A stretch of DNA of 37,500 nucleotides from Leisingera caerulea DSM 24564 (GTDB lineage: Bacteria > Pseudomonadota > Alphaproteobacteria > Rhodobacterales > Rhodobacteraceae), in the NCBI RefSeq assembly GCF_000473325.1, contig NZ_KI421513.1:1020717-1058216 (forward strand). Reading direction: 5' to 3'. The position numbers were made by a program, and so were the translations under genes. Numbering within the stretch: the first letter of the stretch is position 1; each line of letters starts with the position of its first letter. Of this stretch, positions 14,673-35,701 are shown piece by piece. The notes below the pieces were generated by a model. It did no database searches. It saw only the letters and a program-made list of their open reading frames with translations, and was not told where the DNA came from.

Positions 14673-14964
14673 AGGTCTGATCCTGTCTGAGTGGTCCGCC
14701 ATAAAGTGAGGATCCAGAGCGATGTTTCAACCGTTTGGTCAAATCAAAAACAGAACTCCGCCCCGGAGGAGCCTATAAAAACCTGCATTCCTGTCCAGCG
14801 CAGGAACCTGCAATGTGCATTCTCAAAATATGTGTTTCGTGGAAAATTCCTCCTTTCCAGCCGCTGCCAGCCTGACAGGCCCATTGGGGGTGTCCGTCGT
14901 CAGAGAATTTGGGACAGATGGCCGCCTGAGCTAAGAGAGGGTCTGGCTCATCTGGTTGGTTTGA

Positions 14965-16441: not shown

Positions 16442-16873
16442 CCCGCAGATCAGGTGAAGGACTGGATGATCGAGCTCGACGCGCGGCGCCAGCAGCTGGA
16501 ACGGGAGCTGGAACACACCCCTGCCCCGGAGACGGTGGTGTTTCACCCCTCGATGGCGGAGGCCTACCGCGAACGGGTGTCGCGGCTGATCCGGACCCTT
16601 GGCTCCGCCGAAGGCATGGAAGACGCTAAGGAGTCGCTGCGGGCACTGGTGGCGCGGATCGTGCTGACACCTGTGGCGGAGGGCGCAGGCCTGGATCTGA
16701 CCCTTGAGGGCGATCTGGCCGGACTGCTGCGCTTCGCGGCGGGTGCGGAAGGCCCGAACACGAAGAAGGCCTCGGACGGTTTACCCGAAGCCTTTGATAT
16801 TTCAGGTGAATTAGTGTTGGTTGCGGGAGCAGGCAACCGCCGTATCCTACCTGCCCTCTCCGCAATCATATAA
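16442..16873 (+). pseudogene. 3' fragment of a serine site-specific recombinase
   Basis: About 143 codons of the C-terminal region of a large serine recombinase remain (WMIELDARRQQLERELE..., AYRERVSRLIRTLGSAEGMEDAKESLRALVARIVLTPV). The catalytic N-terminal domain and zinc-ribbon region are missing, cut off exactly at the right end of the IS3 element. The last codons (LVLVAGAG) are encoded by a copy of the tRNA-fMet 3' end, a common result of an integrase gene abutting its tRNA attachment site. After that copy the frame runs on into unrelated sequence to 16873. Confidence 0.8.
16724..16833 (+). repeat. Left attachment-type repeat (recombinase 3' end plus tRNA-fMet end)
   Basis: These 110 bp match 35531-35640 at the same length with about nine mismatches counted by eye. 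The last 26 bp (16808-16833) are identical and include the 3' end of tRNA-fMet. The two direct copies bracket the accessory region. Confidence 0.85.
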
Positions 16874-18472: not shown

Positions 18473-18478
18473 GGCGCG

Positions 18479-19393: not shown

Positions 19394-19738
19394 GGGAAAA
19401 CCCTCTATCAACCGAGGCAAAATCACCTCGGCCAACAGCACACACCCGACCTCCTAAACCGCGAAACAAATACCGCTTCAGCCCAACGCCTGCCACGCAG
19501 AGCCCCTATCGCGGAGCGATTTAGTGCATGCGCAGATAGCAGCCTTTGCAAACTCGGCCGTTTGAAGCAACCAGGTGAGGTTCTACGCTGCGGCGCGGCC
19601 TGCCGTTCCGGTCGTTCGCTGCGACTGCGAGGTTTTGCCGCCGGTGAGCTCACACAGTGCCGGACAAAGCGGCAATTTGCTGCGGCTGCGCGAACGTCCG
19701 CATCGAATATCAGTTCGTAACATTATGGAAACTTTGCT

Positions 19739-19993
19739 TCAGGGAGGGCCTGCAAGCCAGCCAACATCATTACGCGCCCCACGCTCACAGTCTTCGAGGC
19801 TTTCGTAATACCCTGACATCTCTGGGCACGACCAATACCCCCCGTCTGGATAGTATAGCAATTCGTCGTCTCCGACGGTGATCCATGCGTTCTCATAGTA
19901 ACGGAAAAACTTGCCGTCAGGACTGATGCGTATGTCGACTGAGCGTGTACCGTCGTCATTTCGCAACGCCTTTTCTATCGGCCAAATTTGCAT
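19739..19993 (-). CDS. Small hypothetical protein
   Basis: An 84-residue acidic, aromatic-rich protein with no family that I recognise (…RNDDGTRSVDIRISPDGKFF…, then YYPDGGYWSCPEMSGYYESLEDCERGARND). Its composition is protein-like, unlike the overlapping frame at 19723-19959. The ribosome site is weak (AACAGG next to the ATG). It sits between the IS91-type and IS3 elements and may be the remains of earlier cargo. Confidence 0.45.
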   Translation of the reverse strand: MQIWPIEKALRNDDGTRSVDIRISPDGKFFRYYENAWITVGDDELLYYPDGGYWSCPEMSGYYESLEDCERGARNDVGWLAGPP

Positions 19994-20414: not shown

Positions 20415-21272
20415 TTAAGCCACCTTTCGTTCGAAAGCGACCGGGCTTTTCCAGCCCAGTGCTGAGTGACGGCGGCGCGGGTTATAGAAGCCGTTGATGT
20501 ATTCAAAGATGGCCATCTCAGCCTGACGCCGTGTGTCCCATGACTGTCGCCAGATCAGTTCAGCTTTGATGGTCTTGAAGAACGTCTCGACCGCGGCATT
20601 GTCGTAACAATTACCCTTGCCGCTCATAGACACCTGGAAGCCATGCTGACGCAGGATTTTTTGATAGTCGTGTGAACAGTATTGCGACCCGCGATCTGTG
20701 TGATGAATGCAGCCCTTAGGCGGTGATCTGAAGGCGATAGCCATCTTCAGCGCCCGGATCGCCAAGTCCCGCTTCATGCGATTGCTGACGGCCCACCCAA
20801 TGACACGCCGGGAATGCAGGTCCAGGATCACAGCAAGATACAACCATCCCTCACGCGTCCAGACATAGCTGATGTCACCCGCCCATTTCTGGTTTGGCAG
20901 GTCTGCTGTGAAGTTTCGATCCAGCAGATTGGGTGCGATGTTGAACTGGTGGTCGCTATCGGTCGTGGCCTTGTATTTGCGGGTTCGAACCACGGATATG
21001 CCATTCTGGCGCATCAAACGGCCCACACGGCGATGGCCAACATCCAGGCCGATCTCCTTAAGCTCTTCGGTCATTCTTGGCCGACCATAGCTGCCCAGGC
21101 TGAGACGTGACTGTTCTTTGATGTGCGCCAGTGTGACCATATCAGAGCGCTGCCTGCGACTGGCTGGCCGACTGCGGAAGGCCCGCAATCCGCGTGTGCT
21201 GACACCGACGACATCGCATAGGCGTTTGGCCGGGAACCTGTCTTGGTGCTCTTCGATGAACTTAAATCTCAT
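20415..21272 (-). CDS. IS3-family transposase OrfB
   Basis: A 285-residue DDE integrase-core transposase. The N-terminal HTH_21-like part (YGRPRMTEELKEIGLDVGHRRVGRLMRQNGI) precedes the catalytic core, with D in WAGDISYVWT, D in HHTDRGSQYC and E in VETFFKTIKAEL. It ends with the typical NPRRRHSALGWKSP. The ATG overlaps the OrfA stop (ATGA). No defects are seen, so the element may be active. Confidence 0.9.
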   Translation of the reverse strand: MRFKFIEEHQDRFPAKRLCDVVGVSTRGLRAFRSRPASRRQRSDMVTLAHIKEQSRLSLGSYGRPRMTEELKEIGLDVGHRRVGRLMRQNGISVVRTRKYKATTDSDHQFNIAPNLLDRNFTADLPNQKWAGDISYVWTREGWLYLAVILDLHSRRVIGWAVSNRMKRDLAIRALKMAIAFRSPPKGCIHHTDRGSQYCSHDYQKILRQHGFQVSMSGKGNCYDNAAVETFFKTIKAELIWRQSWDTRRQAEMAIFEYINGFYNPRRRHSALGWKSPVAFERKVA

Positions 21273-21544
21273 TGCTTTAGGCCCGCGAAGAATTGGGCGG
21301 CCTTTTTTAGGATGTCCCTCTCCTCCTTGAGAATGCGCACCTCGCGCCGAAGGCGTTCATTCTCCTGAGCGAGGCTCAAATCCTCTTTCGACACCGCATC
21401 AGTGTCTCGATGTGCCGTGATCCATTTGTTCAGCGTCGACAGCCCAACACCTAAATCAGAAGCCACCTGCTTACGCGTAAGCCCGCTCGTTAATGCGATC
21501 CGCACAGCATCTTGGCGGAATTCATCCGTCCGCTTCAGTCCCAT
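21269..21544 (-). CDS. IS3-family transposase OrfA
   Basis: A 91-residue helix-turn-helix protein (FRQDAVRIALTSGLTRKQVASDLGVGLSTLNKWI) with a C-terminal leucine-zipper-like segment ending ILKEERDILKKAAQFF, typical of IS3 OrfA. It overlaps OrfB by 4 nt. Confidence 0.9.
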   Translation of the reverse strand: MGLKRTDEFRQDAVRIALTSGLTRKQVASDLGVGLSTLNKWITAHRDTDAVSKEDLSLAQENERLRREVRILKEERDILKKAAQFFAGLKQ

Positions 21545-21601: not shown

Positions 21602-22255
21602 GGTCCAGATGGACGGCGCGAAATTATTGGTCTGGGGCTTGGTCCGTCTGAAGCCGAGACTTTCTGAGCGGACTTCTTGCGCGGCTTGAAAGCCCGAGGG
21701 CTCGACGGCACCAAGCTGGTGGTCAGCGACGCGCACAGCGGCCTCAGGGCGGCCATCGTGCGGGTCTTCGAAGCAACCTGGCAGCGATGTCGCGTTCACT
21801 GGATGCGCAATGCTCTGGCTCATGTCTCACGCGGCCAGCACACCGTAGTCGCCGCTGCGATCCGCCAGGCCTTCGACCAACCCGACCGCGCATCGGCCGA
21901 AGAAACCTGGCGGCGCGTTGCGGATCAGCTCCGCGGGCGATGGCCTAAGCTGGCTGACCTCATGGATGAGAGCGAGCACGACGTGCTGGCCTACATGGCG
22001 TTCCCGCGCCAGCACAAGACGAAGTTGCACAGCACCAATCCGATCGAGCGCTTGAACAAGGAGGTGAAGCGCCGAGCCGATGTCGTCGGTATCTTCCCGA
22101 ATGAGGCCTCCATCACCCACCTGATCGGCGCCGTGCTGTTCGAACAGAACGACGAATGGCAGACCGCCAGCCGCTACATGATGGTGGAGGCCTTCGCCGA
22201 AATCGACGCAGAGGAGACAGACCTCATTCTCAGCCTTTCAACACAAGCCGCCTGA
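21602..22255 (+). pseudogene. IS256-family transposase remnant
   Basis: The C-terminal ~215 codons of a mutator/IS256-type transposase. The frame opens at DGRREIIGLGLGPSEAETF, is interrupted by TGA at 21665-21667 (probably from TGG, Trp), then continues as ADFLRGLKARGLDGTKLVVSDAHSGL...KLHSTNPIERLNKEVKRRADVVGIFPNEAS to the natural end. The 5' half is missing where the IS3 right end begins. Confidence 0.85.
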
Positions 22256-22520
22256 TCATGACCTCAGGCCATCCGGGAAATTACAACAGCTCGACGGACG
22301 TGACCTTCCTTTGCTGCGGTCTGTGCCGAACCCTTTCGCGAGTCGCGGTCCGATTGGTGTGCGCTTTGACAAATCAGAGATACAACTACCTTGGAGGGCC
22401 GGAGCGAACACCTTGTCGCAGGTGTCCGTAACAGGATTGGTGCCGGCCAGACGGGAATTCACTCAATCCAAACGAGGGCTTAACGACTTTAGCTGCAGGT
22501 CGTCAGTTGCGAGACCTCTG
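22256..22520. other. Leader region between IS256 remnant and cargo cassette
   Basis: No gene is supported. The first part should contain the right end of the IS256-type element; the rest leads into the AT-rich promoter region of the cassette. Confidence 0.4.
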
Positions 22521-22550
22521 AATACCGGCCAACGGAGAAATACCGGTATT
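22521..22550 (+). promoter_or_regulatory. ATACCGG repeats, candidate operator of the cassette
   Basis: AATACCGG at 22521-22528 is repeated at 22539-22546, where it forms the perfect 12-bp palindrome AATACCGGTATT (22539-22550). This lies 9 bp upstream of the predicted -35 box. A related palindrome occurs at 26039-26052. Confidence 0.45.
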
Positions 22551-22559
22551 ATCTTAAGG

Positions 22560-22588
22560 TTGTATTTAATCAATAAATAGGCTAAATT
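22560..22588 (+). promoter_or_regulatory. Candidate sigma70 promoter of the cassette
   Basis: TTGTAT (22560-22565), a 17-bp spacer and TAAATT (22583-22588) form a reasonable -35/-10 pair in an AT-rich patch that stands out from the GC-rich surroundings. Transcription would start about 30 nt before the small peptide gene. Confidence 0.5.
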
Positions 22589-22624
22589 TTTTATGTTATC
22601 AGTTTGTAGTAGCGGGGTTTCGCC

Positions 22625-22723
22625 GTGAAGTATCTAGTGATCATCCTTGCAGTATGCTGTGCAGCACCGGCTTCAGTTTCGGCTCAGCCCCCATGTGATC
22701 CAGCCTCACAGCCCTGCCGCTAA
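22625..22723 (+). CDS. Tiny putative secreted peptide (32 aa)
   Basis: A GTG-started frame encodes a textbook signal peptide (VKYLVIILAVCCAAPASVSA) followed by only about 12 residues, QPPCDPASQPCR, with two cysteines. GCGGGG lies upstream of the GTG. It sits between the predicted promoter and the 682-residue membrane protein gene, 18 nt before that start. It may be a real small periplasmic peptide, a leader peptide, or the broken start of a longer secreted protein. No known family is recognised. Confidence 0.45.
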   Translation: MKYLVIILAVCCAAPASVSAQPPCDPASQPCR

Positions 22724-22741
22724 ACCCGAGTAGAAATCGAG

Positions 22742-24790
22742 ATGTTTCCCGACGGCATGTCCGATCTTGCCGCGCTGATCTATGGCGGCGGTATTCTTGT
22801 CGCGTTTTCCTATACGCGCTTTAATCGCATCTCATATGAGACCGGTCGAAGACTTGACAGGCTGGTCAATTTCCTGACCCCGGACAAGCTCCGTGCGAGA
22901 CGCCAAGTAGGGTTCGCCTACTTCATATATACTCTAGTTCTTATCCTGACATACCTAGTTCTCTGCGCGTATGCCGATTTGCTGCTGCCACTGATCGGCG
23001 CCCAAGCCATCGTTCCAGACCAAGGGGCGAGCGGTCTGCCCGCTCCGGCGGGCAACGGCCAGTCGATTGCCGTTCCGTCCGCAACGGCCGACGTTGACGC
23101 CATTTTGACGACGGGCTTTGCGCCGCTGGGAGAGCCCGTCATCAAATATTGGACCGATGAACTTCAGCCGTCCGAAACCGTGACGACAAACAAAGGCGAC
23201 AGCGACGGCTTTATAGAACCGCAAGTCTCGTTAGGGCTGGCGCTGATCATGGTTGGTCTTGCACCAGCCATACCCGCCCTGGAACGCGCTGATGAATGGC
23301 TGCGCATGGTGGCCCATCGCATGGCCGGAATCCCAACCTGGGTCATTGATGCATCAGACAATCTCCGCTCGAACGCGGGAGTTCTTGGCATTTTCAGGAA
23401 AACGAATGGAAAAATAGAGGACAACGAAAAAGAGGAAGAGACAAAACAGCGGGTGAGCGCACTAATGGTCTCGCCGTCCGACGTCGAACTCATGCGGAAA
23501 TTGCGTGACGAAGCCCGCCTTTCCCTCGGGAACTTCGACGATTTCTGCCTGAATATCGAGGTCATTTTTGTCGCAGCAGCGTGGTTTCTCGAAGAGAACC
23601 TGCATGTTTCCAACTCCGGCGACAAACTGCGTTTCACGGAAATGGAGGATGAGCTGAGACGGAGAAAGGACGCCCTGATTAGCATGGCCGAGGGCGACTT
23701 ATCGCGCGAAAAGCTGGAAAACCTGGCCGTCGAAGCCGACCTATTGGCAAGCGACTTCTGTGTTCTGATCGCCCTTTATGATGAGCACGGTGTCATTCAA
23801 CCCTTCAGCCGCCGCCCAAGCGCTAATGCTCGCCAGAAAGAAGCCCGCGAACGGCTTCAAGAATTTCTAAGGGTGCTACACGACAGCAGGACAGAGCCAA
23901 TGCTGCGTCAACGTGCTACGACCTTGGCGCTGTTTTGGACGTTGGCCATCGTGATGACATGGACTGCCGCATGGGCACTGCTATGGCCGGGCGCCGCTGA
24001 ATTCAGCCTCATTAGGGGCGAGATGGAAAGCAGTCCATATGAGAGAATGCTGAATTACTCGGCCTCCGCCTTCAATAGCTACGGGCTGGCTATCATCGTG
24101 GCTATCACCCTGCGTTGGCTCCGCGACATTGACGAGACTGGCGACGGGCAGTGGAACTGGGAAAACCTGCGCTACCCGTCACATTGGACGCGCTGGCTGC
24201 CACAAGCCGCGATGTTGGTTTTTGCAGCCTGGGCCTTCTCGACCTTGATGATGTTAGCAACGTACGTCTTCCTGTCTGGTGTTATTAAGGGCGAAGCGAA
24301 GGCCGAAGATGTTTGGGCATTCGTTCAGCGGAGTTTCGAATATAACAGTCCAGTCGCACTCCGCGGGGCGATCTTGTCGCTCATGGTCGTCATTTTGCTG
24401 GATGCGCGCCAACGACTTTGGATCGATGCTTTCCGCTACAAACGGGGCGAGAACCCTAGAAGAACGGACCCGCAGAGGCTTGCGAGAAACGCCCGCGTTT
24501 GGAGCGAACTGTCGCTCGGATACAGTTTTGTCTGGGCCGCCATCGGCGCCGTCGTGATGATGATGACAGGTGCATTGACGCGGTATCTGTCCTTTCTTGC
24601 CGCCAGCCGAGGCAATCGCGCTTTTGAAGATATCGACGCCGGCCTGATGATCTGGGCAACGTTGAACTGCACCATTCTGGGAGCATTGGTGATGTTTTGC
24701 GTCTCCGAAGCTCTCAGCGGGCGCTCCTTTGTCAAGTTACCGGCGCAGTCTGGTGGCAGCTCGGATAATCCGGCTGCGGCGGAGACATGA
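22742..24790 (+). CDS. Multi-pass membrane protein of unknown function with large soluble loop
   Basis: A 682-residue inner-membrane protein with about nine hydrophobic segments, near residues 8-24, 58-86, 162-180, 393-415, 441-459, 486-512, 539-553, 593-616 and 632-656. Between helices two and three lies a ~75-residue polar loop rich in Pro/Ser/Thr, probably periplasmic. Between helices three and four lies a charged, largely helical ~210-residue region (KIEDNEKEEETKQRV..., MEDELRRRKDALISM...) that is probably cytoplasmic. I do not recognise the family. The gene overlaps the next by 4 nt (ATGA), so the membrane protein and the binding protein are made together. The likely role is as a membrane transducer or channel reading the periplasmic partner; this is inferred from context only. 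Confidence 0.8.
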   Translation: MFPDGMSDLAALIYGGGILVAFSYTRFNRISYETGRRLDRLVNFLTPDKLRARRQVGFAYFIYTLVLILTYLVLCAYADLLLPLIGAQAIVPDQGASGLPAPAGNGQSIAVPSATADVDAILTTGFAPLGEPVIKYWTDELQPSETVTTNKGDSDGFIEPQVSLGLALIMVGLAPAIPALERADEWLRMVAHRMAGIPTWVIDASDNLRSNAGVLGIFRKTNGKIEDNEKEEETKQRVSALMVSPSDVELMRKLRDEARLSLGNFDDFCLNIEVIFVAAAWFLEENLHVSNSGDKLRFTEMEDELRRRKDALISMAEGDLSREKLENLAVEADLLASDFCVLIALYDEHGVIQPFSRRPSANARQKEARERLQEFLRVLHDSRTEPMLRQRATTLALFWTLAIVMTWTAAWALLWPGAAEFSLIRGEMESSPYERMLNYSASAFNSYGLAIIVAITLRWLRDIDETGDGQWNWENLRYPSHWTRWLPQAAMLVFAAWAFSTLMMLATYVFLSGVIKGEAKAEDVWAFVQRSFEYNSPVALRGAILSLMVVILLDARQRLWIDAFRYKRGENPRRTDPQRLARNARVWSELSLGYSFVWAAIGAVVMMMTGALTRYLSFLAASRGNRAFEDIDAGLMIWATLNCTILGALVMFCVSEALSGRSFVKLPAQSGGSSDNPAAAET

Positions 24791-26028
24791 AGGCCCTGGC
24801 TGCCTCTGCCGTTCTGGCCGCATTCTGCGCCGGCCCGCTCGCGGCTCAGAGCATGTGTGCAAACTGCGATGAACCGATCCGCATGGGCGTGCGTCCGGAT
24901 GTTCCACCCTTCATTTGGAAAGACTCCACCAGCGGCCATTTCCGCGGATTTTTCTGGGATATCTGCACCACCGCGCTGACGCGGGCTGGTTACCGGCGCG
25001 AAACCGTCGAAATAACCGCAGGCCAACGCGCCAACCTGCTTGCATCCGGCAACAAGAACTGCACAGCGGGCACGGCCTGTCGGACCAAGCAAGGCGTCGA
25101 TCTTCTGTGCGACCCGACGACCATCACGCTGGCGCGTATGGAAGCTTTCGCGGGGCCGCACCATGGCGCCGGGCGGTTTGTTTTCTCGCCCATTCTCTAT
25201 GTCGCGAACGGGGCGTATATCCAGCAGACTTACCCGCGCCGTGAATTCCGCCGACGCCTGGGTCGTAAACTCCGAAGTAAATGCCCCGACAGCGACCAGC
25301 TCAAAGCGATTTACTGCAGCAAGCCGCTACGGCTTCCTCCTTTATCCTGGCTGCTTCGGCCGCATGCGCGGGAACTGCCCGAACGGCCAAAGATCAAGTG
25401 GCCTGCCGCCTGCGATGCAATTCTCGAGGCACTGGACACCGCGACCGAAACCTCAGAGTCCGATGCTCCGGCCCCCGGCGGCAGCGGCACCGGAGAACGC
25501 AGCGCCTGGGACCCACCGCAGATTTGGCCCGAGCAGGAACCCAGCGAGCCGGAATTCGAGATATGGGGATATGTGGAAGGCGCCACGATCGGCAGCACCG
25601 TCATGAAAGCAGCTGACAATGCCAATGACGGGACCATCGGTGTCTGCGCGAAGCCCTTTGCCTCGCACGGCAAGGCAGCCGAAGCGTTCTGCGAAAACCG
25701 TATCTACCGGTACTTCGGTGATGTCGACCTCGTCCGTGCGGCGATCGATGGATATACGAAGATCAGCAGCAAGGAATGCAATACCAACCAGAAAGCCGCG
25801 GAACGCGGCACGTACGAACCATACGCCTTGCTGCTGTCGCAAAGGCGCAATGGTTTTCCCGAAGCCTTCAACCTCGCGCTCTACTCCATGTTCACCGACG
25901 GCACGATCGGCGAGATGTTCGACGGGCGTTTTGGCGGGCAGCGCCGCTCGCAATACCTCGACACACTATTCAGAATTAACAGTATTCCGGCCGGTAAGCG
26001 GCAGCGATTCCACACTGGTGGAAGGTAG
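24787..26028 (+). CDS. Orphan periplasmic solute-binding protein (family 3-like)
   Basis: A 413-residue secreted protein with signal peptide MKALAASAVLAAFCAGPLAA. Features of family-3 binding proteins are visible: IRMGVRPDVPPFIW and FRGFFWDICTTAL in lobe one, FVFSPILYVANGAYI at the hinge strand, WGYVEGATIGSTV and YFGDVDLVRAAIDGY in lobe two, and YALLLSQRRNGFPEAFNLALYSMFTDGTIGEMF at the end. It is much longer than usual (about 250) because of Cys-rich and Pro/Ser-rich insertions, including an acidic linker near residues 219-255. No ABC permease or ATPase is nearby, so it is probably a sensor rather than a transporter component. Translationally coupled to the upstream membrane protein. Confidence 0.75.
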   Translation: MKALAASAVLAAFCAGPLAAQSMCANCDEPIRMGVRPDVPPFIWKDSTSGHFRGFFWDICTTALTRAGYRRETVEITAGQRANLLASGNKNCTAGTACRTKQGVDLLCDPTTITLARMEAFAGPHHGAGRFVFSPILYVANGAYIQQTYPRREFRRRLGRKLRSKCPDSDQLKAIYCSKPLRLPPLSWLLRPHARELPERPKIKWPAACDAILEALDTATETSESDAPAPGGSGTGERSAWDPPQIWPEQEPSEPEFEIWGYVEGATIGSTVMKAADNANDGTIGVCAKPFASHGKAAEAFCENRIYRYFGDVDLVRAAIDGYTKISSKECNTNQKAAERGTYEPYALLLSQRRNGFPEAFNLALYSMFTDGTIGEMFDGRFGGQRRSQYLDTLFRINSIPAGKRQRFHTGGR

Positions 26029-26038
26029 GGAAGATCCG

Positions 26039-26052
26039 CCCGGTATACCGGG
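26039..26052. promoter_or_regulatory. 14-bp perfect palindrome, second candidate operator
   Basis: CCCGGTATACCGGG lies 10 nt after the binding-protein stop, in the 202-bp gap before the protease gene. It is built from the same CCGGTAT/ATACCGG half-site as the palindrome at 22539-22550. It may control a separate promoter for the two protease genes; alternatively it could form a small hairpin in the transcript. Confidence 0.4.
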
Positions 26053-26230
26053 ATACGGCCGCTGGATTCACGGCTGAAAAAAACGACAGAAAGGCAATCT
26101 GGACAGAGCCGTTGATTTTCCACAAGGACTGCGGCCTCCACCACGAACGTGGATGTTGCCAACGCGGATCATCTTCTGTCCCTGCCCGTCACGGCGCTCG
26201 GTTGTTTCTAATCAGTACATGGAGGTTCAA

Positions 26231-28444
26231 ATGCCCTTCGTAGTTCCCTCCGAGTTCATCGATAACCAGGGCGTACGCCAGGACTGGGTTGACCTGCGCG
26301 ACCAGCCCTTTGTGCCCAGCCTGTCGGTTCTGCGCGATGCGGTCTCAATCGACAGGCGCCTGATGGAGCCTATCGGGGAGACCGCGTTCAGGCGGCCGAT
26401 TTTCGGCGTGCGCCACCAGCAGTTGACCCAGCGATGCGTCGGTTACGCGCTTGCCGCGCTGATCGACATCCAGCGCAACCTGCAATGGCTCCGCCGTTCC
26501 GATATCTGCGAGGCACAATGGTCCAAGAAGAAGGCGAAGGCACGAACCGACATTGCCAGCGCCGACATGCTTTACCGCATGGCCTATTTTCACGACCGGT
26601 ACCCGGAGATTGACAGCCAGCAGGGGGGGGAGGAAGGCATTCGCTCGCTTCGCTCCGCGGTTAAGGGGTTTTACCATCACGGCGCCTGCCTGGACTGGCC
26701 TGAAAGTTCGGCAACGGACGATCCTGGACGCTGGCAAAGCACTTGCTACTTCCTACGGAGCCCTGACAATGAGAGCTACTTCCCAACGGACGCGCAAGTC
26801 AAGAAAGCACAGGAAACCGGTTTGGGCGCATATTTCCGCCTCGCCTCGGTGCTCAATCACTACCATTCTGCGCTGAACGATGCCGAGGCGGTCCTGACCA
26901 CCGCCAATGTCCATGACGGATGGCAAAACGTCACTCCCGACACTGGCGGTGTAATAAAATGGCCGCCGGAGAAGGGCCTGTCCGGCTGCCATGCAGTTGT
27001 TCTGACCGGGTATGACGATCAGGGCTTTCATGTCTTGAACTCCTGGGGAGAGGACTGGGGCGGATACAAGGGGCAGATGGGGATTGCCCTGTGGCAATAT
27101 GCAGATTGGGCGCAGAATGTCGTGGACAGCTGGGTGCTTCGGCTCGGCGTTCCGGCCCCCCGGGCCTTTTCCGTCTCCACCGGAGAGAAAGGCGTCAAGG
27201 GAATTCATGCTGCCGCCCGGGCCGGTTCCACACCCTGCTCCTCCCTGGCTGGCCACTACATGCATCTCGATGACGGCTTCCACGTCTCCAACGGGTCCTA
27301 TCCATCCTTCCATTCGGGGTGGAAGAGAACCCGCGCTCTGCTGGAGGAAAGGCTTGAACCGAAAACCAGATCGGGCCCAGCCGAAACGCTCTGCAAGGGT
27401 GTCCTGCTGTGGATTCCCGGAAGTGCCGAAGGCATCAAACCGGCATTTGACGCGGCGGTGCTTCGCAAAGACCGTATTGAGGCACTCGGGCTCTATCCCT
27501 ACACGATTTTCTGGTGCAACAGCTTTGTCGAAACCTCGATGGACGTCCTTCGTTTCATCTTCGACGACGCCGAGACGCAAACCGGAAAAGGGGCCGAGCA
27601 TCTTGATAGGCTGATCGAAACGCGTGTGCGGGGAATTGGCCGGGCGATCTGGCGCGAGGTGGAGACCTGCGCTGAGAAGGCCGTGCGCGGCCCGGCCGAG
27701 CACCCCGGCCCACGCGCCGCGATCCGGCCGCTTGGACTTGGCTATGTCTCCAGATTCCTTCGCGATCTGATGCAGTTGAAGGAAAGAACCGGCTGCCAGC
27801 TGCACCTTGTCGCCGAGGGCGCGGGGGTGATGGTCTTGGACGAGATCCTGGCAATGGTCGCCGAAGATGGAGATGGGATGTTCCCACACAGCAAACCGGC
27901 TGACCTGTTCGAAACACTGCACCTTGTGCATCCCGCCATCGGACTTCCCCGCGCCAAACATCGTCTGATCCCTTGTATTGAGGCGATGAACGGTGAGCTG
28001 AAGGGCAAAACTGTTCATGCCTCCAGCCCGGAAATATCCGGGATCACCCCGCTGATCGACACCGGAGCCGAGCCCCGCGCCCGCGTCTACATCCCCACAC
28101 CCGGCCTGGAAGAGGCGCTGCACTTCGGCAGCTATGGGAAATCGCTGCTGCATCTGGTGTCGCGCAGCTTTGAAGACCGCCACTTCGAGCCGCAAGTGAA
28201 GGATGGCGCCCCCGTAACCCAAGGTCAGCCGCGCGAAGTATTTGGCATGAGCAGCCTGGCCGGCAGCGATGATTTCCCGCCGCAGTCTTCGATCTTCCGC
28301 CTCAACCGGGTCGAAAGCCCGGCTGGCACCGGCGGGAAAGTCGCGCAAACGGAGCTGATGCGGGATCCGGCCATCACGGATTTCATTTTCACCAAGATCC
28401 GCGAAATGGGGGAGATTTCGGGATCATCTAGCAATGAGGATTAA
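26231..28444 (+). CDS. Papain-like (C1) cysteine protease fused to degenerate alpha/beta-hydrolase domain
   Basis: A 737-residue cytoplasmic-looking protein without a signal peptide. Residues ~55-305 are papain-like: Q63 and C69 in QQLTQRCVGYALA (oxyanion Gln six before the catalytic Cys), H254 in GCHAVVLTGYD, and N270 in NSWGEDWGGYKG. Residues ~385-650 resemble an alpha/beta hydrolase: CKGVLLWIPGSAEG, YPYTIFWCNSFVETSMDVL, HLVAEGAG where GHSAG is usual, and SYGKSLLHLVSRSFE. The nucleophile Ser appears replaced by Gly530, so this domain may bind rather than hydrolyse. GGAGG 5 nt before the ATG fixes the start at 26231, not the ATG at 26153. The stop lies 4 nt before the next start. Confidence 0.8.
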   Translation: MPFVVPSEFIDNQGVRQDWVDLRDQPFVPSLSVLRDAVSIDRRLMEPIGETAFRRPIFGVRHQQLTQRCVGYALAALIDIQRNLQWLRRSDICEAQWSKKKAKARTDIASADMLYRMAYFHDRYPEIDSQQGGEEGIRSLRSAVKGFYHHGACLDWPESSATDDPGRWQSTCYFLRSPDNESYFPTDAQVKKAQETGLGAYFRLASVLNHYHSALNDAEAVLTTANVHDGWQNVTPDTGGVIKWPPEKGLSGCHAVVLTGYDDQGFHVLNSWGEDWGGYKGQMGIALWQYADWAQNVVDSWVLRLGVPAPRAFSVSTGEKGVKGIHAAARAGSTPCSSLAGHYMHLDDGFHVSNGSYPSFHSGWKRTRALLEERLEPKTRSGPAETLCKGVLLWIPGSAEGIKPAFDAAVLRKDRIEALGLYPYTIFWCNSFVETSMDVLRFIFDDAETQTGKGAEHLDRLIETRVRGIGRAIWREVETCAEKAVRGPAEHPGPRAAIRPLGLGYVSRFLRDLMQLKERTGCQLHLVAEGAGVMVLDEILAMVAEDGDGMFPHSKPADLFETLHLVHPAIGLPRAKHRLIPCIEAMNGELKGKTVHASSPEISGITPLIDTGAEPRARVYIPTPGLEEALHFGSYGKSLLHLVSRSFEDRHFEPQVKDGAPVTQGQPREVFGMSSLAGSDDFPPQSSIFRLNRVESPAGTGGKVAQTELMRDPAITDFIFTKIREMGEISGSSSNED

Positions 28445-28448
28445 GATA

Positions 28449-31400
28449 ATGGCAAAGATCACAGTTGAACAGCTACAGGCGAAGATGGCCGACCCAACCA
28501 CAGACGAAAGCGAGCTGGCGCAGTACTTCACCGTCGATGAAGACGCCTCCGCCGCCTTCGCGCCAAGACTGAGACTGAACCCCGCAACGGTCCAGATCCC
28601 CCGCACCGCCGACGCGGAACAGCGTACGGCGGCGTTGATGAATTCGGCCAACTGGTTTGCCCGCTTGCGGCGGCAGGTCCGGTTCCAGAACGCGCTCGCG
28701 AAAGGGTATGACGGGCCGTTGATCGTCTCTGACGGCGACAGCTGGTTCCAGTACCCGCTGCTGCTGAAGGACACGATCGACCACCTGCTGGACCACTACG
28801 CGATCCTGTCGCTGGGCGCTGCCGGAGACCTGCTTAAGCGGATGGCGGACAAGCAGGAATACCTGCGCGCCCTGCGCGATACCGGGGCCGAAATACTGCT
28901 GCTGTCTGGCGGTGGCAACGATCTGGTCGCAGGCGGCGGCCTCGCCGCGCACCTTGAGGAGTTCCACCCCGATCTCATGCCCGAAGACTACCTACTGCCG
29001 TCGTTCCACGATCTGCTGGACGACGCACTGACCCACTACGAGCGCATGTTCACCCAGGTCCGCGATGCTTTCCCGCATGTCACGATCCTCTGCCACGGCT
29101 ACGATTATCCCGTGCCCAACCGGGACCGCTGGCTGGGCAAACCGATGGAGCGCCGCGGCATTCGCGACCGGGGCCTGCAAAAATCCATCGCCGCCTGCAT
29201 GATGGACCATTTCAACCGGCGCCTACGGCGGCTAGCCGCGTCGATGCCGCATGTCACCTACATCGACTGCCGCGGGGTCGTCGGCGATCATCGCTGGCAT
29301 GACGGTCTGCACCCGACAGACGAGGGGTACGCCGATGTGGCGGCGAAATTCCAGCATGAGATCAGTGCGCTCTCCAACGCACGCAGCAGCCCGCCGATGG
29401 TCATCAGCGGTCCCTTTGGCACTGCCAATCAGCTATCCCGCGCGCTTGGCGCGCCGCCAGTCATCGCCGGTGGAAAAGCAACGGGCTACTCGCTACACGC
29501 AGGTTTGAACACGGTCGACCCCGATCACTACGACGGGTGGGATGGCCGGCTGATCGCCTGCGAGGCTGATGCAATTGCGATGGAAACACTGGCAGCAGCT
29601 GAAGGTTTCGCCCCTGCCCGTCTGCTGACATCAGACGCCACGCGGGCGAACGTCACCGAGGAAATCCGCCGCGCGGCGCGGGACCTCAAGGCCGGAGACA
29701 TGTTCCTGATGACGGTCTCGGGCCATGGCGGACGCGTTCCCGACTTCAACCTGGACGAGGATCACGACGGCGACCAGAAGTTCGACGAGACCCTATGCCT
29801 CTATGACTTCCAATTGGCCGACGACGAGCTTTATATGCTGTGGTCGGAGTTTCGCGCCGGTGTGCGGGTGCTGGTGGTCGCCGATACATGTCATTCTGGC
29901 TCGATGATCAAGATGGGCGGGTTGCCGATGCCAACCGCTCTCTTCGGCAGACCCATCGCACCGCCGCCCGGTGCCCGCGCCATGCCGCTGCATATCGAAG
30001 ACCGCGTCTGGCGCGCCAATGAGGCCGCATACCGCAGTGCCTCCGACAGCTACTCGGCGCTAAAGGAATGCGTTCTCACCAACCCTCTGTCCACGCCGGT
30101 CAAGGCATCGGTGCTGAACCTAGGTGCCTGCATGGACACGCAATTCGCCATGGACGGGCCGCAAAATGGCGCCTTTACCGGGGCCTTGCTGCAAGTCTGG
30201 GACAACGGGCGCTTCAAAGGCAACTACCACGATCTCCGCGCCGCCACCGAAGGCCAGATCGGCAGCCCAAGCCAAACCCCGCAGTTGTTCGACAAACTGG
30301 TGCGCGAGCCCGACTTCACCACGCACCGGCCATTCACCTTGCAACCGCGCGCCGGCCGCCCGGCAGCGCAGGGCAGCACGCCTCCGGTCCCGCACTCGGT
30401 GGAAGAGCAGATGAGCTCCGCCGAAGAAGAGGGCGACGGCGAGGAGCGCGACCAGATCAGCGCGGAAGAGGTCGAGGCGATCCTTTCCGCCAAGGCCCGC
30501 GGCGCAGGTTTCCGCGACAGCCAGGCGGCGCTCACCTGGTCCGGCTACGCGGAATTCGATGCCTTCATCTCCTCCCTCGGGCTGAAGCATTTCTCAACCG
30601 GCGAGTTTCTTGTCCTGGGCGGCGGCCACAATACCCCCGGCGGACCCTGCGCGGGCAAGAACACCTATCCGCCGCGCCATCTGTGGAGCAATATTGCCTC
30701 CACCGCGCGGGTGCTCGACCAACTGCGCGACCGGCTCGGTAAGCCTATCGCCATCACCAATGCCTATCGCGGTCCGGCCTATAATTCCTGCATCGGCGGC
30801 GCCGCTGGCAGCCAGCATATGCAGTTCACGGCGCTTGACTTTCAGGTCCGGGGCATGGCGGCACCAGGCGTGGCCCATGCACTGCGTTACCTGCGCGACA
30901 AGGAAGGCCTCTTCAAGGGCGGGATCGGCCGCTACAACAGCTTCACCCATGTCGATACGCGTGGCTACAACGCCACTTGGCCGAAAGCGTTCCGGGACAG
31001 CCCCCTGGCCTCGTCACCGCCACTGGGTCCGCCGGGCCCGGGCAGCCTGACCGAGCGCCTAGCGATGATCGGCGCCCTCGACCTGGCCCCAACGCGCAGC
31101 CGGCGCGCCGTCTCGGAGGCATCGGTCTTCTCCGAACCGGTCAATCGTTCCCATGACAGTTTCGACCCGTCCTCCGCGCTGGCAGCGCAGCAACAGGCTC
31201 TGTCCGCCGCTGTCAACGCGTCCAGCGTGATCTCCTTCGTGGATAACCTCACGCCGGGGCACAAGGAGGATGTGCTGTTGTCCACCCTATTCGCACAGCG
31301 CGCCGCGGACGCCAAGTCCGATCCGGTGGCGGAGCGTGAAGCCTGGTTCACGGAATACATGCGGGTCCTCGGCCTCCTGGGATGGGTGCGCGAAGAGGCA

Positions 31401-31844
31401 CCGTTTACCGCCAGCGAAACGATGCAAGGCAGCGGCAGCTTCGAAAAGGTCATCCTGTCAACCCTAGCGCAGGTCGCCACGGCCAACCAGTTCGAGATCG
31501 TTAAGAGCGCCATCGGCGCGCTGCGCGGGCTGGCCGACGACGACGGCACAATCAAGCTGTTCGATTTCGAAACCTCGAAAACCAGCGGCAGCAACTTCCA
31601 GATCGGCACGGCCGAAGCTTCCGGCGACATCATCAACATCGCGCTCGGCGCCTTCAACTTCACCTACAGCGACAGCAAGAAGAACATCCTCTTCGTATCC
31701 TGGGGGGCAAAAGAACTGAAGTATTGGCTGGCGGCGCAGAATTTGTCACTGAGCCCAGCGGTCTACAACACCGTTCGTAAGCTGGTAGCTTCCCGCCTCT
31801 CGGAGGTCCGGAAAGCCGTTCTGGCCGATATTTCTCTGGTCTAG
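28449..31844 (+). CDS. SGNH hydrolase-caspase-M15 peptidase fusion protein
   Basis: A 1131-residue protein with no signal peptide or membrane segment. Domain 1 (~88-310) is an SGNH/GDSL esterase: SDGDSW (nucleophile S98), SGGGND (N157), and HDGLHP (D285, H288). Domain 2 (~345-590) is a caspase/metacaspase-like C14 peptidase: catalytic H426 in SGHGG and C481 in ADTCHSG, with a DEDHDGD acidic loop between. An acidic linker follows (~650-675). Domain 3 (~710-845) is an M15A-type zinc peptidase: SQHMQFTALD (H790, D797) and THVD (H834), although the motif Gly is Phe793. The C-terminal ~290 residues (Ser/Ala-rich linker, then a compact domain from ~990) are unrecognised. The start at 28449 follows GAGGA. 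It is the last gene of the cassette. Confidence 0.85.
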   Translation: MAKITVEQLQAKMADPTTDESELAQYFTVDEDASAAFAPRLRLNPATVQIPRTADAEQRTAALMNSANWFARLRRQVRFQNALAKGYDGPLIVSDGDSWFQYPLLLKDTIDHLLDHYAILSLGAAGDLLKRMADKQEYLRALRDTGAEILLLSGGGNDLVAGGGLAAHLEEFHPDLMPEDYLLPSFHDLLDDALTHYERMFTQVRDAFPHVTILCHGYDYPVPNRDRWLGKPMERRGIRDRGLQKSIAACMMDHFNRRLRRLAASMPHVTYIDCRGVVGDHRWHDGLHPTDEGYADVAAKFQHEISALSNARSSPPMVISGPFGTANQLSRALGAPPVIAGGKATGYSLHAGLNTVDPDHYDGWDGRLIACEADAIAMETLAAAEGFAPARLLTSDATRANVTEEIRRAARDLKAGDMFLMTVSGHGGRVPDFNLDEDHDGDQKFDETLCLYDFQLADDELYMLWSEFRAGVRVLVVADTCHSGSMIKMGGLPMPTALFGRPIAPPPGARAMPLHIEDRVWRANEAAYRSASDSYSALKECVLTNPLSTPVKASVLNLGACMDTQFAMDGPQNGAFTGALLQVWDNGRFKGNYHDLRAATEGQIGSPSQTPQLFDKLVREPDFTTHRPFTLQPRAGRPAAQGSTPPVPHSVEEQMSSAEEEGDGEERDQISAEEVEAILSAKARGAGFRDSQAALTWSGYAEFDAFISSLGLKHFSTGEFLVLGGGHNTPGGPCAGKNTYPPRHLWSNIASTARVLDQLRDRLGKPIAITNAYRGPAYNSCIGGAAGSQHMQFTALDFQVRGMAAPGVAHALRYLRDKEGLFKGGIGRYNSFTHVDTRGYNATWPKAFRDSPLASSPPLGPPGPGSLTERLAMIGALDLAPTRSRRAVSEASVFSEPVNRSHDSFDPSSALAAQQQALSAAVNASSVISFVDNLTPGHKEDVLLSTLFAQRAADAKSDPVAEREAWFTEYMRVLGLLGWVREEAPFTASETMQGSGSFEKVILSTLAQVATANQFEIVKSAIGALRGLADDDGTIKLFDFETSKTSGSNFQIGTAEASGDIINIALGAFNFTYSDSKKNILFVSWGAKELKYWLAAQNLSLSPAVYNTVRKLVASRLSEVRKAVLADISLV

Positions 31845-32114
31845 GCGCCTCTTGATCCCGGCCCAATTCGCACGTGCAGCGGGTGGGGCAGACACCTAGC
31901 GCGCTGCTTTATGTGTGGAACAAATCTGAGGCCTCCGGGCCGAAACCGGCGTTCCAAGGCACCCGGTAAGCCATTCAACCGACTGGCTTTCCCGCCTGCG
32001 GAACGGGCCGCGGCGGCGGTTTTCCTTCCTGAACTATGCTGCTTTCCCGCTTTTCCCGGCCGCTTCCCGGGAAACTGCGTGGAATTTTTTCTAAAGCAGA
32101 GAAGGAAGACAGCC
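31845..32114. other. Gap between cassette and integrase gene
   Basis: No gene and no clear T-tailed terminator were found. A reading frame extends back from the integrase to 31911, but it is Arg/Pro-rich and lacks a ribosome site. The integrase promoter should lie here. Confidence 0.4.
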
Positions 32115-33389
32115 ATGCGTAAATCCGCTCTGAACACCGCCAATGCACGTCCCGCTTCCCACCGGTCAGAGACTGTTCATTGGGACACTGAGGTTCCCAA
32201 GCTGGGCCTCCGGCAGCGCGGTGCCACAAGCTCCTGGATCGTGCAGTGGCATGCCGATGGCAGGACCCGGAAGCAGACACTCGAGCGGGCCGACGCGATC
32301 CCCCTGCCCCAGGCCCGCGAGCTGGCTAGAACGCTGCTCGACGGCGTAACTGCGGGGGTAGCTCCGGACGCCGCCCCGACGGTGGCCGCCTTCAGCCGCC
32401 GCTATCTCAAGGATCTCGCCCCGAGCTGGAAACCGGCTACACAACGTGCCCACGCACATGACATTGAACACCTCATTATTCCTGAACTGGGCAGCAAGCG
32501 GCTTAATCAGGTGACACAGGCAGATTTGATTTCTTGGAAAGATGGTCTGCCCGGCAGTGCCGCCAGCGGCAACCGCGCACTCGCCGTTTTGTCTGGCATG
32601 ATGCGCCACGCGGAACTGCTTGGTCTGCAGCCGCGCGGCAGCAACCCTTGCAAGGGGCTCAGGCGCCGCAAAACAAGTTTCACGGCCACTTACCTCTCCG
32701 AGGCACAGTGGGCGCGGCCGGGAACTGCTCTGCGGCGGCTGGAGGTAACCCACCCGCGTGAGGCGGGCTGCTTCCGCTTTCTCGCCCTCTCCGGCTGCCG
32801 CAAGGGGGAAGCGCTTGCGCTGCGGTGGGACATGATCGACGGGCCGCGTTGCGCTCTGCCAGATGCCAAGTCCGGACCGCGCGCGATCTGGCTCGGGCGT
32901 CCCGTAAAACAGGTTCTTGCCTCCTTTCCGCGCAACAACCTGTACGTGTTCGGCGAGGGCAAGGACCCAATGCCGGACCACCGGATTGACAGGGTCTGGC
33001 GCAAGCTCCGGAAAAGCGCAAAACTCAGCGGAGTCCGCCTGCATGATCTGCGCCATAGCTTTGCCTCAGTTGGCATCAACGCCGGGCTGGATCTGCGCGT
33101 GATCGGCGGGTTGCTGGGCCATTCCGATCTCGCAACCACCGAAGGCTATGCGCATTTGGAGGACCGCACCATCAAGGCTGCAAGCCAGCGGGTGGGCACG
33201 CATCTGGAAAAGATCGTCAAGGTTCCCGTTTCGGGCCGCGTCCGGGACAGTTCGATTTACCAGCGCTTCTGCAATTCACGGCTCTCCATCGGCGCCTTCT
33301 GCGATGAAAACGGGATCGACCCAGTCACGTTCCGCAAAGGGCTCCTGGCTTGGCGCTCGGTGAAACGGGGCCGGAGGGCGCGAGCATGA
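32115..33389 (+). CDS. Tyrosine-type site-specific integrase
   Basis: A 424-residue phage/island integrase. The N-terminal arm-binding part (VHWDTEVPKLGLRQRGATSSWIVQWHADGRTRKQTL) resembles the DUF4102-type domain; a core-binding region follows (~95-190). The catalytic domain has Arg in ALSGCRKGEALALRW, LHDLRHSFAS (HxxR), and LLGHSDLATTEGYAHL (His and Tyr nucleophile). AAGGAAG precedes the ATG at 32115. The stop overlaps the ATG of a second integrase gene (ATGA), so the two formed a coupled pair. It appears intact and is the best candidate for mobilising the island. About 60 residues beyond the usual end (RVRDSSIYQRFCN...) are extra. Confidence 0.88.
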   Translation: MRKSALNTANARPASHRSETVHWDTEVPKLGLRQRGATSSWIVQWHADGRTRKQTLERADAIPLPQARELARTLLDGVTAGVAPDAAPTVAAFSRRYLKDLAPSWKPATQRAHAHDIEHLIIPELGSKRLNQVTQADLISWKDGLPGSAASGNRALAVLSGMMRHAELLGLQPRGSNPCKGLRRRKTSFTATYLSEAQWARPGTALRRLEVTHPREAGCFRFLALSGCRKGEALALRWDMIDGPRCALPDAKSGPRAIWLGRPVKQVLASFPRNNLYVFGEGKDPMPDHRIDRVWRKLRKSAKLSGVRLHDLRHSFASVGINAGLDLRVIGGLLGHSDLATTEGYAHLEDRTIKAASQRVGTHLEKIVKVPVSGRVRDSSIYQRFCNSRLSIGAFCDENGIDPVTFRKGLLAWRSVKRGRRARA

Positions 33390-34538
33390 AAACCGTCACC
33401 CTCCTCACCCCGCTGATCTTGTCATCTCTCAAGGCGCGCAAGAAGGAATACGTGCTTCATGATGCCCAGTGCGACGGCCTGGCCCTGCGTGTCCAGCCCG
33501 GCAGCGCCAAGTCCTGGGTCCGCTGGCAGCGGGACGCGGGACGCGGGGAAAACCCGGCGTGTCACCTTGGGGAGCTTTGAGGACATGGAAATCTGCGAAG
33601 AACGCGAAGCCTTCCATGCGGAAAAAGGAACTGGGCAACGGCCCCCTGCCCCGGAGCAGCGCAACACACCCACCTTCTCGGCGCTCTGCGCCGCCTTCCT
33701 GGATGCCAAGCGCGGGGTCTATGCCAATTCCACGCTTTTTTCGCTGGACTGCTATCTGAATACGCAGCTTCTGCCCGCCTTTGGTCGGCGGAGAATTGCG
33801 CGGATCACAACGCCCGACATCGCCGAATGGTTCTATGCCTATTCCCGTTTGCGGCCGAGCGGGGCCAACCAGGCGCTTGGGCACTTTACGACAATTCTGT
33901 ATTGGGGCCAGAAAGCAGGTCACCTTCCGGCGGGCTTGCCCAATCCGGCTGCGCCTTTGCGTTTCAACCGGCGGTTGGCGCGCGGTCGCATGCTGAGCAG
34001 CGACCAGCTCCGGCGGCTGGCGGCCGTGCTGTACTCCGCAACGGCCAGACAGCGGGACGCTGCGGACGCAATTTGGCTGATGCTGCTGACAGGCTGCCGC
34101 TCCGGTGAGATTCTGCGGTTGAGCTGGGATGAGGTCCAGAAAGACAAGCTTGTCCTCCGGCGCACCACGACGGGCCCTCGCGAGGTTAATCTCAGCGATG
34201 CCGCTATCCAGTACCTTAGCCGGCTGCGCAAACAGCGCCGGTCCAGCTACGTGTTCCTTGCTCAGCGTGCAAAAAAGCCACACCGCACGTCAGTCGATCA
34301 TGCTTGGCAGACCTTCAAAAACCTGGCTGATTTGCCAGCAGAAATCCGGCTGCACGATCTCCGCCACACATACGCCTAGCATGCCATCATGTCCGGCGAA
34401 ACCCTCCACATGACCGGCAAACTGCCCGGCCACATGTCTCCGGACAGCACCGAACGTTACGCACACTTTGACGCGGGCCATCTGGAAAAAGCCGCCGACA
34501 AAGTGTCTCGGAAAATTGAAGGATTACTGAGTGGTTAG
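33386..34538 (+). pseudogene. Second tyrosine integrase, inactivated
   Basis: Originally about 380 codons. It starts MKTVTLLTPLILSSLKARKKEYVLHDAQCDGLALRVQPG, then a 7-bp tandem duplication (GGGACGC at 33531-33537 and 33538-33544) shifts frame. Removing one copy restores WQRDAGKTRRVTLGSFEDM. The second frame runs through the catalytic Arg (LLTGCRSGEILRLSWDE) to LHDLRHTYA, then TAG at 34377-34379, probably from TCG (Ser). The rest (HAIMSGETLHMTGKLPGHMSPDSTERYAHFD, with His and Tyr nucleophile) follows to 34538. It overlaps the intact integrase by 4 nt. Confidence 0.9.
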
Positions 34539-35530: not shown

Positions 35531-35624
35531 CTGCTGCGCCTTGCGGCGGGTGCGCAAGGCGCGAACACGAAGAAGGCCCCGGACGGTTTATCCGAAGCCT
35601 TTGATATTTCTGAGGAATTAGTGT

Positions 35625-35640
<16 letters not shown>
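35531..35640 (+). repeat. Right attachment-type repeat at tRNA-fMet
   Basis: A second copy of the 110-bp recombinase 3' end; the last 26 bp (35615-35640) are identical to 16808-16833 and overlap the tRNA 3' end. Only this tail of the recombinase remains here. Confidence 0.85.

Positions 35641-35701
<61 letters not shown>

Follow-up and report, generated by a model that had tools for sequence, protein, structure and literature searches.

What kind of system, if any, do five neighbouring genes on a genomic island of Leisingera caerulea DSM 24564 form? The genes lie at 22625-31844 of a stretch of 37,500 nucleotides (nt) of contig NZ_KI421513.1, which was analysed as a whole and is called the window here. 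They are co-oriented open reading frames (ORFs) encoding a micropeptide and four large proteins, A to D. The cassette is best described as a sensor module (micropeptide, A and B) able to combine with several lytic effector modules, the pair C-D being the most frequent one seen here. The reading we favour, that the two together act as a mobile, peptidase-triggered cell-lysis (suicide) system, is in our judgement about as likely as not. The genes, with protein lengths in amino acids (aa), are:

22625..22723, plus strand: micropeptide, 32 aa, GTG start
22742..24790, plus strand: A, membrane protein, 682 aa
24787..26028, plus strand: B, SBP_bac_3-like protein, 413 aa
26231..28444, plus strand: C, papain-like protein with pseudo-alpha/beta-hydrolase, 737 aa
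28449..31844, plus strand: D, SGNH-caspase-M15 fusion with a predicted Cyt-like part, 1131 aa

A sequence-only reading of this DNA had proposed a five-gene cassette with two tight junctions and a promoter candidate of its own. All five ORFs were found in the same orientation, and the junctions are as described, with a 4-nt overlap of A and B and a 4-nt gap between C and D; B and C are 202 nt apart, and a GGAGG sits 5 bases ahead of the ATG of C. The promoter was not recovered, as a simple upstream scan gave no sigma-70-like site.

The proposed effector proteins C and D

The catalytic triad of C is C69/H254/N270. In the family alignment the Cys is kept in 26 of 27 rows (the 27th lacks the N-terminus), and the His and the Asn are kept in all 27. 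The papain Pfam score of C alone stays below the cut-off (13.8 vs 20.7), and the profile of the C family matches the cysteine protease 3ois (6e-14), which places C in the papain family (C1). The remaining part had been called a pseudo-hydrolase, and the family agrees: E529 occupies the nucleophile position of the alpha/beta-hydrolase part, and this column holds Glu or Asp in 27/27 aligned members. Among eight distant homologues inspected, seven keep GHSxG with its Ser.

D is composed of the following parts:

28731..29333, plus strand: SGNH/GDSL hydrolase domain, PF13472, E 3e-12; S98, N157, D285 and H288 in 62/62
29523..30287, plus strand: caspase (C14) domain, PF00656, E 1e-14; H426 and C481 in 62/62
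30693..30956, plus strand: M15_3 peptidoglycan peptidase domain, PF08291, E 4e-19; H790, D797 and H834 in 62/62
30999..31844, plus strand: Cyt/volvatoxin-like pore-forming fold, preceded by a linker, from a predicted model and Foldseek

The first three domains all exceed their Pfam cut-offs. The assignment as caspase is based on PF00656 (54.9 bits, cut-off 21.4) and on the match to 3bij/GSU0716 (E 1.7e-66). The residues proposed earlier as catalytic, C69 in C and S98, C481 and H790 in D, were correctly chosen. The linker ahead of the Cyt-like part is variable, yet R870 (61/62), R883 (53/62) and R900 (60/62) are retained.

The C-terminal domain of D is absent from the sequence-only reading. Its predicted model has a Cyt fold, resembling Cyt delta-endotoxins, volvatoxin A2 and Evf; unlike these stand-alone toxins, to which it shows no detectable sequence similarity, it is fused to a caspase and a wall hydrolase. 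Gasdermin is not among the structural rows, which match Cyt, and such an absence from a list is no proof. Viral relatives of the model were set aside, the best two rows (E 6e-5 and 3e-4) carrying no informative name. Stand-alone genes for the Cyt-like part adjoin a Lipase_3-subtilase gene (L179, overlapping by 4 nt in the called ORFs) and an SGNH-trypsin gene (L164). On two Sinorhizobium plasmids (L182, 6854-12895; L185, 17988-22828) a Cyt-like gene, an SGNH-M15 protein and an annotated serine/trypsin-like protease are consecutive; 74 plasmid records match D, 45 of them from Sinorhizobium. It is mainly because of this recurrent adjacency to caspase, subtilase or trypsin that we read the Cyt-like part as a putative protease-controlled pore.

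To follow the pair C-D, a contig collection was scanned with the C alignment using two peptide patterns, a search that is not exhaustive and yielded 65 loci, one of them cut by the contig end. An SGNH-caspase gene directly follows C in 41 of them and is fused to it in 1, giving 42 C-D loci, all of which fall among the 47 closer loci L004-L050. In the 18 more distant loci (L051-L068; by title mostly gammaproteobacterial, one from Rhodobacteraceae) no SGNH-caspase gene adjoins C. Record titles assign 44 of the 65 loci to the Alphaproteobacteria, with C-D present in 40 of the 44; the titles of the remaining two C-D loci name Granulosicoccus. For co-occurrence statistics a sample of 394 Rhodobacteraceae genomes was used, in which C occurs in 17 genomes and the full SGNH-caspase gene in 10, with C adjoining in 10/10 (P 9e-16; P 2e-14 excluding the window's own genome). 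Four of 21 C genomes had been dropped for a best E above 1e-20 (G238, G325, G373, G417), and 70 of 80 SGNH-caspase genomes for a match spanning one domain only. The locus and genome surveys overlap (G012/L004, G190/L028, G257/L023, G350/L035, G385/L014, G398/L020, G411/L046), and their counts were not summed.

The composition of the effector module varies. Across the 42 C-D loci, D has the Cyt-like part in 23, ends after M15 in 4 and ends after the caspase in 15. In some loci with a short D the neighbours supply a wall enzyme, with a GH19-like gene ahead of C in L038 and L040-L042 (one cluster, of which L040 was scanned) and an M15 ORF in L046 and L050. SGNH relatives are joined to trypsin (L045, L152, L163, L164), to trypsin and Endonuclease_NS (L159) or to Amidase_3 and M15 (L144). 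C itself adjoins trypsin-Endonuclease_NS (L136, L157), stands behind an Amidase_2-caspase (L048), is fused to trypsin (L155) and occurs with a haem-peroxidase gene (L034, L152).

Some further arrangements were noted. Animal-haem-peroxidase genes near C, SGNH-trypsin or A were identified by Pfam match in L034, L138 and L152; those of L035, L036 and L045 cluster with L034, and an unscanned gene of L153 is alike at its start only. In L154 (9212-14954) C lies in two ORFs adjoining a KAP-family NTPase gene, possibly an NTPase-linked version. A Rhizobium leguminosarum plasmid (L183, 1353-8293) carries an SGNH-caspase, then a chitosanase and an L,D-transpeptidase, with a C25 peptidase further on that apparently stands in place of the C1 papain; this set is divergent from a peptide-A-B module.

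Intercellular toxins typically have swappable parts of this kind (amidases, CHAP, Endonuclease_NS, patatin, GH19, Cyt-like). C-D and its relatives might thus be antagonistic toxins for other cells, either competitors or eukaryotic predators, delivered by secretion or lysis, with peptide-A-B controlling their production or export. An immunity gene of the Rap1a/Tai family in the neighbourhood of the R. leguminosarum locus would fit, and so would the eukaryotic targets of the known Cyt proteins (PMC5390079). However, D has no signal-peptide-like N-terminus and no hydrophobic segment above the threshold, and C has one weak peak. No immunity gene conserved across the C-D loci was noticed, nor any secretion-apparatus family among the Pfam-scanned neighbours, although no dedicated search was made for either. 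We consider the toxin explanation rather unlikely. Suicide seems more likely than export, since D lacks a signal-peptide-like N-terminus and a caspase implies regulation.

The micropeptide and the proposed sensor proteins A and B

The micropeptide has a signal-peptide-like N-terminus and ends in CDPASQPC(R). In 19 of 20 A loci a short ORF with hydrophobic N-terminus and the ending C[DN]PxxxxC lies at most about 100 nt from the start of A, the one exception being L138; in four of these loci it falls just inside the ORF of A, whose start was probably called too early. When the 1.91 Mb of locus sequence was scanned for a hydrophobic stretch and CxPxxxxC with a stop no more than three codons later, 22 ORFs came up, of which 20 are next to A, one is upstream of the C-D pair of L005 and one is a chance match. 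As the motif was derived from the first loci, plasmid loci provide an independent test: among 11 plasmid records carrying A, three were examined and 3/3 were positive. For these three loci the gene tables of PLSDB, incomplete by design, do not list the micropeptide. The tiny secreted peptide of the earlier reading is therefore a genuine conserved component, and one that is easily overlooked in annotation.

Two loci show variations of this arrangement. In L140 (10297-10580, minus strand) two micropeptide ORFs follow in succession upstream of an A-B fusion. In L005 (7985-9951) a micropeptide with CNPRIQQC is followed by an ORF with one transmembrane (TM) segment and a secreted-looking protein of ~420 aa in place of A-B, and then by C-D.

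According to hydropathy, A has ~9 TM helices, an outer loop of ~85 aa and a cytoplasmic helical part of ~210 residues. At the chosen threshold 11 peaks are seen, two of which are taken to be amphipathic helices in the cytoplasmic portion, and this fits the nine-helix protein proposed before. An assignment of A as permease of an ATP-binding cassette (ABC) transporter or as a known fold was rejected, with no Pfam family above cut-off and no Foldseek row below E 0.19. Regarding the parts of an ABC amino-acid transporter, A fits no permease family, and A-D gave no match to an ABC ATPase family. B has a signal-peptide-like N-terminus and is predicted to be periplasmic. As solute-binding protein (SBP) it reaches 28.3 bits with SBP_bac_3 (cut-off 26.4), the match covering profile positions 1-70 of 132 and hence the N-terminal half only.

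Relatives of A form 14 protein clusters (7,996 candidates scored). By profile A is present in 11 of the 394 Rhodobacteraceae genomes, with B adjoining or fused in 9/11; fused forms of A-B occur in relatives. In hhalign comparisons the gene 3' of D in Ensifer/Sinorhizobium matches A at E 1e-10, and the TM part of a Paracoccus fusion does so at E 6e-9. In Leisingera SS27 (L004, 6550-8410) A is split across two overlapping frames and looks broken or misassembled.

A different membrane protein, c2, with 350-366 aa and 6-7 hydrophobic segments, lies directly 3' of D in 12 loci (L006, L007, L009-L012, L015-L018, L022, L025), including those of Aliiroseovarius; one scanned member has no Pfam family. 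That c2 is a homologue of A was ruled out by hhalign, and it is possibly a replacement membrane partner.

Possible coupling of the sensor and effector modules

The window shares the order peptide-A-B-C-D with two Paracoccus and with Leisingera SS27. A-B is divergent from the effector genes in P. aerius, P. lichenicola and R. leguminosarum, in Ensifer/Sinorhizobium peptide and A are found downstream of D with no B seen, and on a Palleronia plasmid A-B stands side by side with an SGNH-caspase. Elsewhere A-B is divergent from C (L136) or from an SGNH-Amidase-M15 gene (L144). Among the 394 genomes A and C-D occur together in 3, with 0.28 expected (P 0.0018). A occurs with C in 4 of the 11 A genomes (P 0.0007) and, without the window's own genome, in 3 vs 0.41 expected (P 0.006); 7/11 A genomes have no C.

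Alternatively, two independent modules might share mobile elements by chance, peptide-A-B being a stand-alone sensor or transporter and C-D a stand-alone protease system. A-B without adjoining C or SGNH gene at L137, L140-L143 and L145 would agree with this, and so would the 33 of 42 C-D loci without A and the unrelated c2 gene after D in 12 loci. However, the modules adjoin each other in at least three arrangements (same operon, divergent, A downstream) in both Rhodobacterales and Rhizobiales, A and C-D share genomes above expectation also when the window's own genome is left out, and a micropeptide precedes C-D even where A is absent (L005). A chance association is therefore improbable in our view.

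For the sequence-only reading, which had taken the four large genes for one system, this means that synteny in distant genomes and the fusions of A-B and C-D speak for it and that the set is not obligate. It had further deduced a ligand-triggered proteolytic cascade from an SBP and a membrane protein beside proteases; the catalytic residues are indeed intact, and the cascade and its trigger we infer.

Island setting, related systems and a possible lysis mechanism

The cassette is located on an island with these features:

16724..16833: left copy of a 110-nt direct repeat (island end)
35531..35640: right copy of this repeat, which ends in the 3' end of the tRNA
35625..35701, minus strand: tRNA-Met(CAT), integration site, by ARAGORN
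31911..33389, plus strand: tyrosine integrase of the island, PF00589, E 2.7e-15
33459..34379, plus strand: second tyrosine integrase, PF00589, E 2.8e-15
17255-19441: IS91-type transposase and tyrosine recombinase
20415-21544: IS3-type element
21677-22255: Mutator-type fragment

The two repeat copies are 92% identical and bound an island of ~18.8 kb, and the tRNA gene adjoins 5S/23S rRNA genes. The tRNA-linked island with insertion sequence (IS) elements proposed earlier is thus corroborated by the tRNA, the repeats and the transposases inside. Because the remaining long genes between the repeats are transposases, integrases or a recombinase, the cassette is the sole long non-mobile cargo seen. 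An 84-aa acidic ORF (19739-19993, minus strand) lies inside the island among the mobile elements. Outside it an ordinary amino-acid SBP_bac_3 gene is found (13917-14702, minus strand), whose position is unrelated to B.

Such a mobile location, on an island here and on conjugative plasmids elsewhere, would suit a strict anti-phage abortive infection system like bacterial gasdermins or CARD-NLR, which is a sub-case of the lysis reading and compatible with it. The logic of protease and pore known from bacterial gasdermins (PMC9612521) would also agree with such a role, as would the ABC-three-component genes near an S. fredii relative and the TIR gene near an S. meliloti relative. The enrichment in defence islands that the sequence-only reading had named as a check was not evident: 94 flanking ORFs of 35 loci contain members of 3 PADLOC families, mad2, mad3 and mad8, once each (E 1e-10 or better, without control set). 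These ORFs were hand-picked from 140 (37 loci), leaving out c2 repeats, near-identical Aliiroseovarius neighbours and some long doubtful ORFs, and some may be spurious. Moreover, D fits only the generic PADLOC caspase model, A, B and C match none, no NTPase family is present in A-D, and B, hence the sensor, faces the periplasm. We consider a strictly anti-phage role possible, though less likely than not.

The closest published systems found are EACC1-caspase and NucA-trypsin (PMC7159879), bacterial gasdermins (PMC9612521) and LypABC (PMC13236601). In the EACC1-caspase system (System 4, Kaur et al. 2020, PMC7159879) a membrane-associated caspase likewise has variable partners, and in some instances the variable part is reported to have TM helices followed by an extracellular periplasmic-binding-protein domain; in the cassette, by contrast, separate genes encode SBP, TM protein and micropeptide, and SGNH, M15 and Cyt-like parts are fused to the caspase. 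The EACC1-type caspase model NF047832 gives 22.8 bits for a cut-off of 140, and no EACC1-named family matched in A-D, in libraries whose holding of an EACC1-domain model is unchecked. The NucA-trypsin system (System 3, PMC7159879) is also mostly alphaproteobacterial, with several proteases per operon and nuclease and peptidoglycan-attacking effectors, and C and the SGNH domain have relatives beside or in trypsin-Endonuclease_NS proteins. Unlike it, the cassette has a core of papain and SGNH-caspase plus the peptide-A-B sensor; neither Endonuclease_NS nor trypsin is found in A-D of the window, both being present in the loci of relatives.

Gasdermins and CARD-NLR/LypABC share protease-controlled membrane killing or lysis, with a caspase- or trypsin-like protease beside or within the system (PMC9612521, PMC13236601), whereas here the predicted model of the putative pore domain is Cyt-like, the sensor is directed to the periplasm, and protease, wall hydrolase and putative pore form one chain. 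No NLR-type STAND ATPase was matched in A-D. A Chitinophaga pinensis metacaspase also unites a GDSL lipase, a wall hydrolase (amidase) and a caspase in one protein (PMC3501461); it is a single sequence, in contrast to a family with a partner papain and the Cyt-like domain in 23/42 loci. In the excerpts of the open-access literature on the closest systems no account was found of the micropeptide, the A-B pair, the C-D pair or a caspase-Cyt fusion. Since the defining part of each system compared is lacking (for gasdermin, absence from the rows is no proof), we place the cassette among the protease-activated bacterial conflict and death systems as a variant.

LypABC, a protease-based immune-like system, is reported to drive lysis for gene transfer agents (GTAs) in the alphaproteobacterium Caulobacter (PMC13236601). 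By this precedent the cassette could serve programmed lysis for the release of GTAs or public goods. Against this, C is spread sporadically (17 of the 394 genomes), a pattern that does not point to a conserved function in release, and A-D have no NLR-type component, which makes release for us a quite improbable purpose.

If the cassette is a lysis system, it may work as follows. The secreted, Cys-bracketed micropeptide, periplasmic B and polytopic A would read a periplasmic signal, with the micropeptide possibly being the ligand of B or an external plug of A. The signal would cross the membrane via the cytoplasmic helical part of A to cytosolic C and D, the pseudo-hydrolase of C possibly being an adaptor, and C and the caspase would become activated; the trigger could be phage, a competitor, stress or quorum. 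The caspase of D, or C, might then cleave D in the Arg-containing linkers (R870, R883, R900), and orthocaspases do cleave after basic residues (PMC6426788). The freed Cyt-like domain would perforate the inner membrane, so that M15, aided by the SGNH hydrolase, could reach envelope and peptidoglycan. D would in this way be holin, endolysin and activating protease in a single polypeptide.

Several results weigh against this mechanism. The Cyt-like call comes from one low-confidence model (pLDDT 59, pTM 0.61) with modest Foldseek TM-scores of 0.31-0.39 by query length in 11 rows, no Cyt family was matched by sequence (20 members vs Pfam; PDB sequences), and the stand-alone Cyt-like gene of L180 has no protease in view. 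The Cyt-like domain is lacking in 19/42 C-D loci, 15 of which also lack M15. A adjoins only 9/42 C-D loci, with B in 5 of them and none seen in 4 (Ensifer/Sinorhizobium), and the link of Paracoccus c96 to A is weak (hhalign E 6e-4). Within the genome sample 7/10 C-D genomes have no detectable A, 8/11 A loci have neither C nor an SGNH gene adjoining, and co-occurrence of A with C-D drops to 2 genomes vs 0.23 expected (P 0.019) without the window's own. The three single PADLOC hits also belong here, as known defence genes are not evidently enriched.

More tentatively, the cassette may represent a new class of bacterial lytic death, in which a secreted octapeptide loop of the disulfide type (C[DN]PxxxxC) would be the cognate signal or the plug of a receptor formed by SBP and membrane protein. 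This receptor would control an executioner that unites caspase, Cyt-type pore, endolysin and SGNH lipase in a single chain. The logic would be gasdermin-like with a different pore fold, its sensor and effector modules being swappable and carried by islands and conjugative plasmids in Rhodobacterales and Rhizobiales. To our knowledge, activators and executed functions are known for few bacterial caspases. Here they would form a testable circuit of a mature peptide of ~10 residues, an SBP, a membrane protein and a caspase tied covalently to a predicted pore and a wall peptidase. If true, pore formation released by a protease would have a second example, independent of gasdermins, and the partner swapping of caspase, trypsin, subtilase and papain genes in alphaproteobacteria may find its explanation here.

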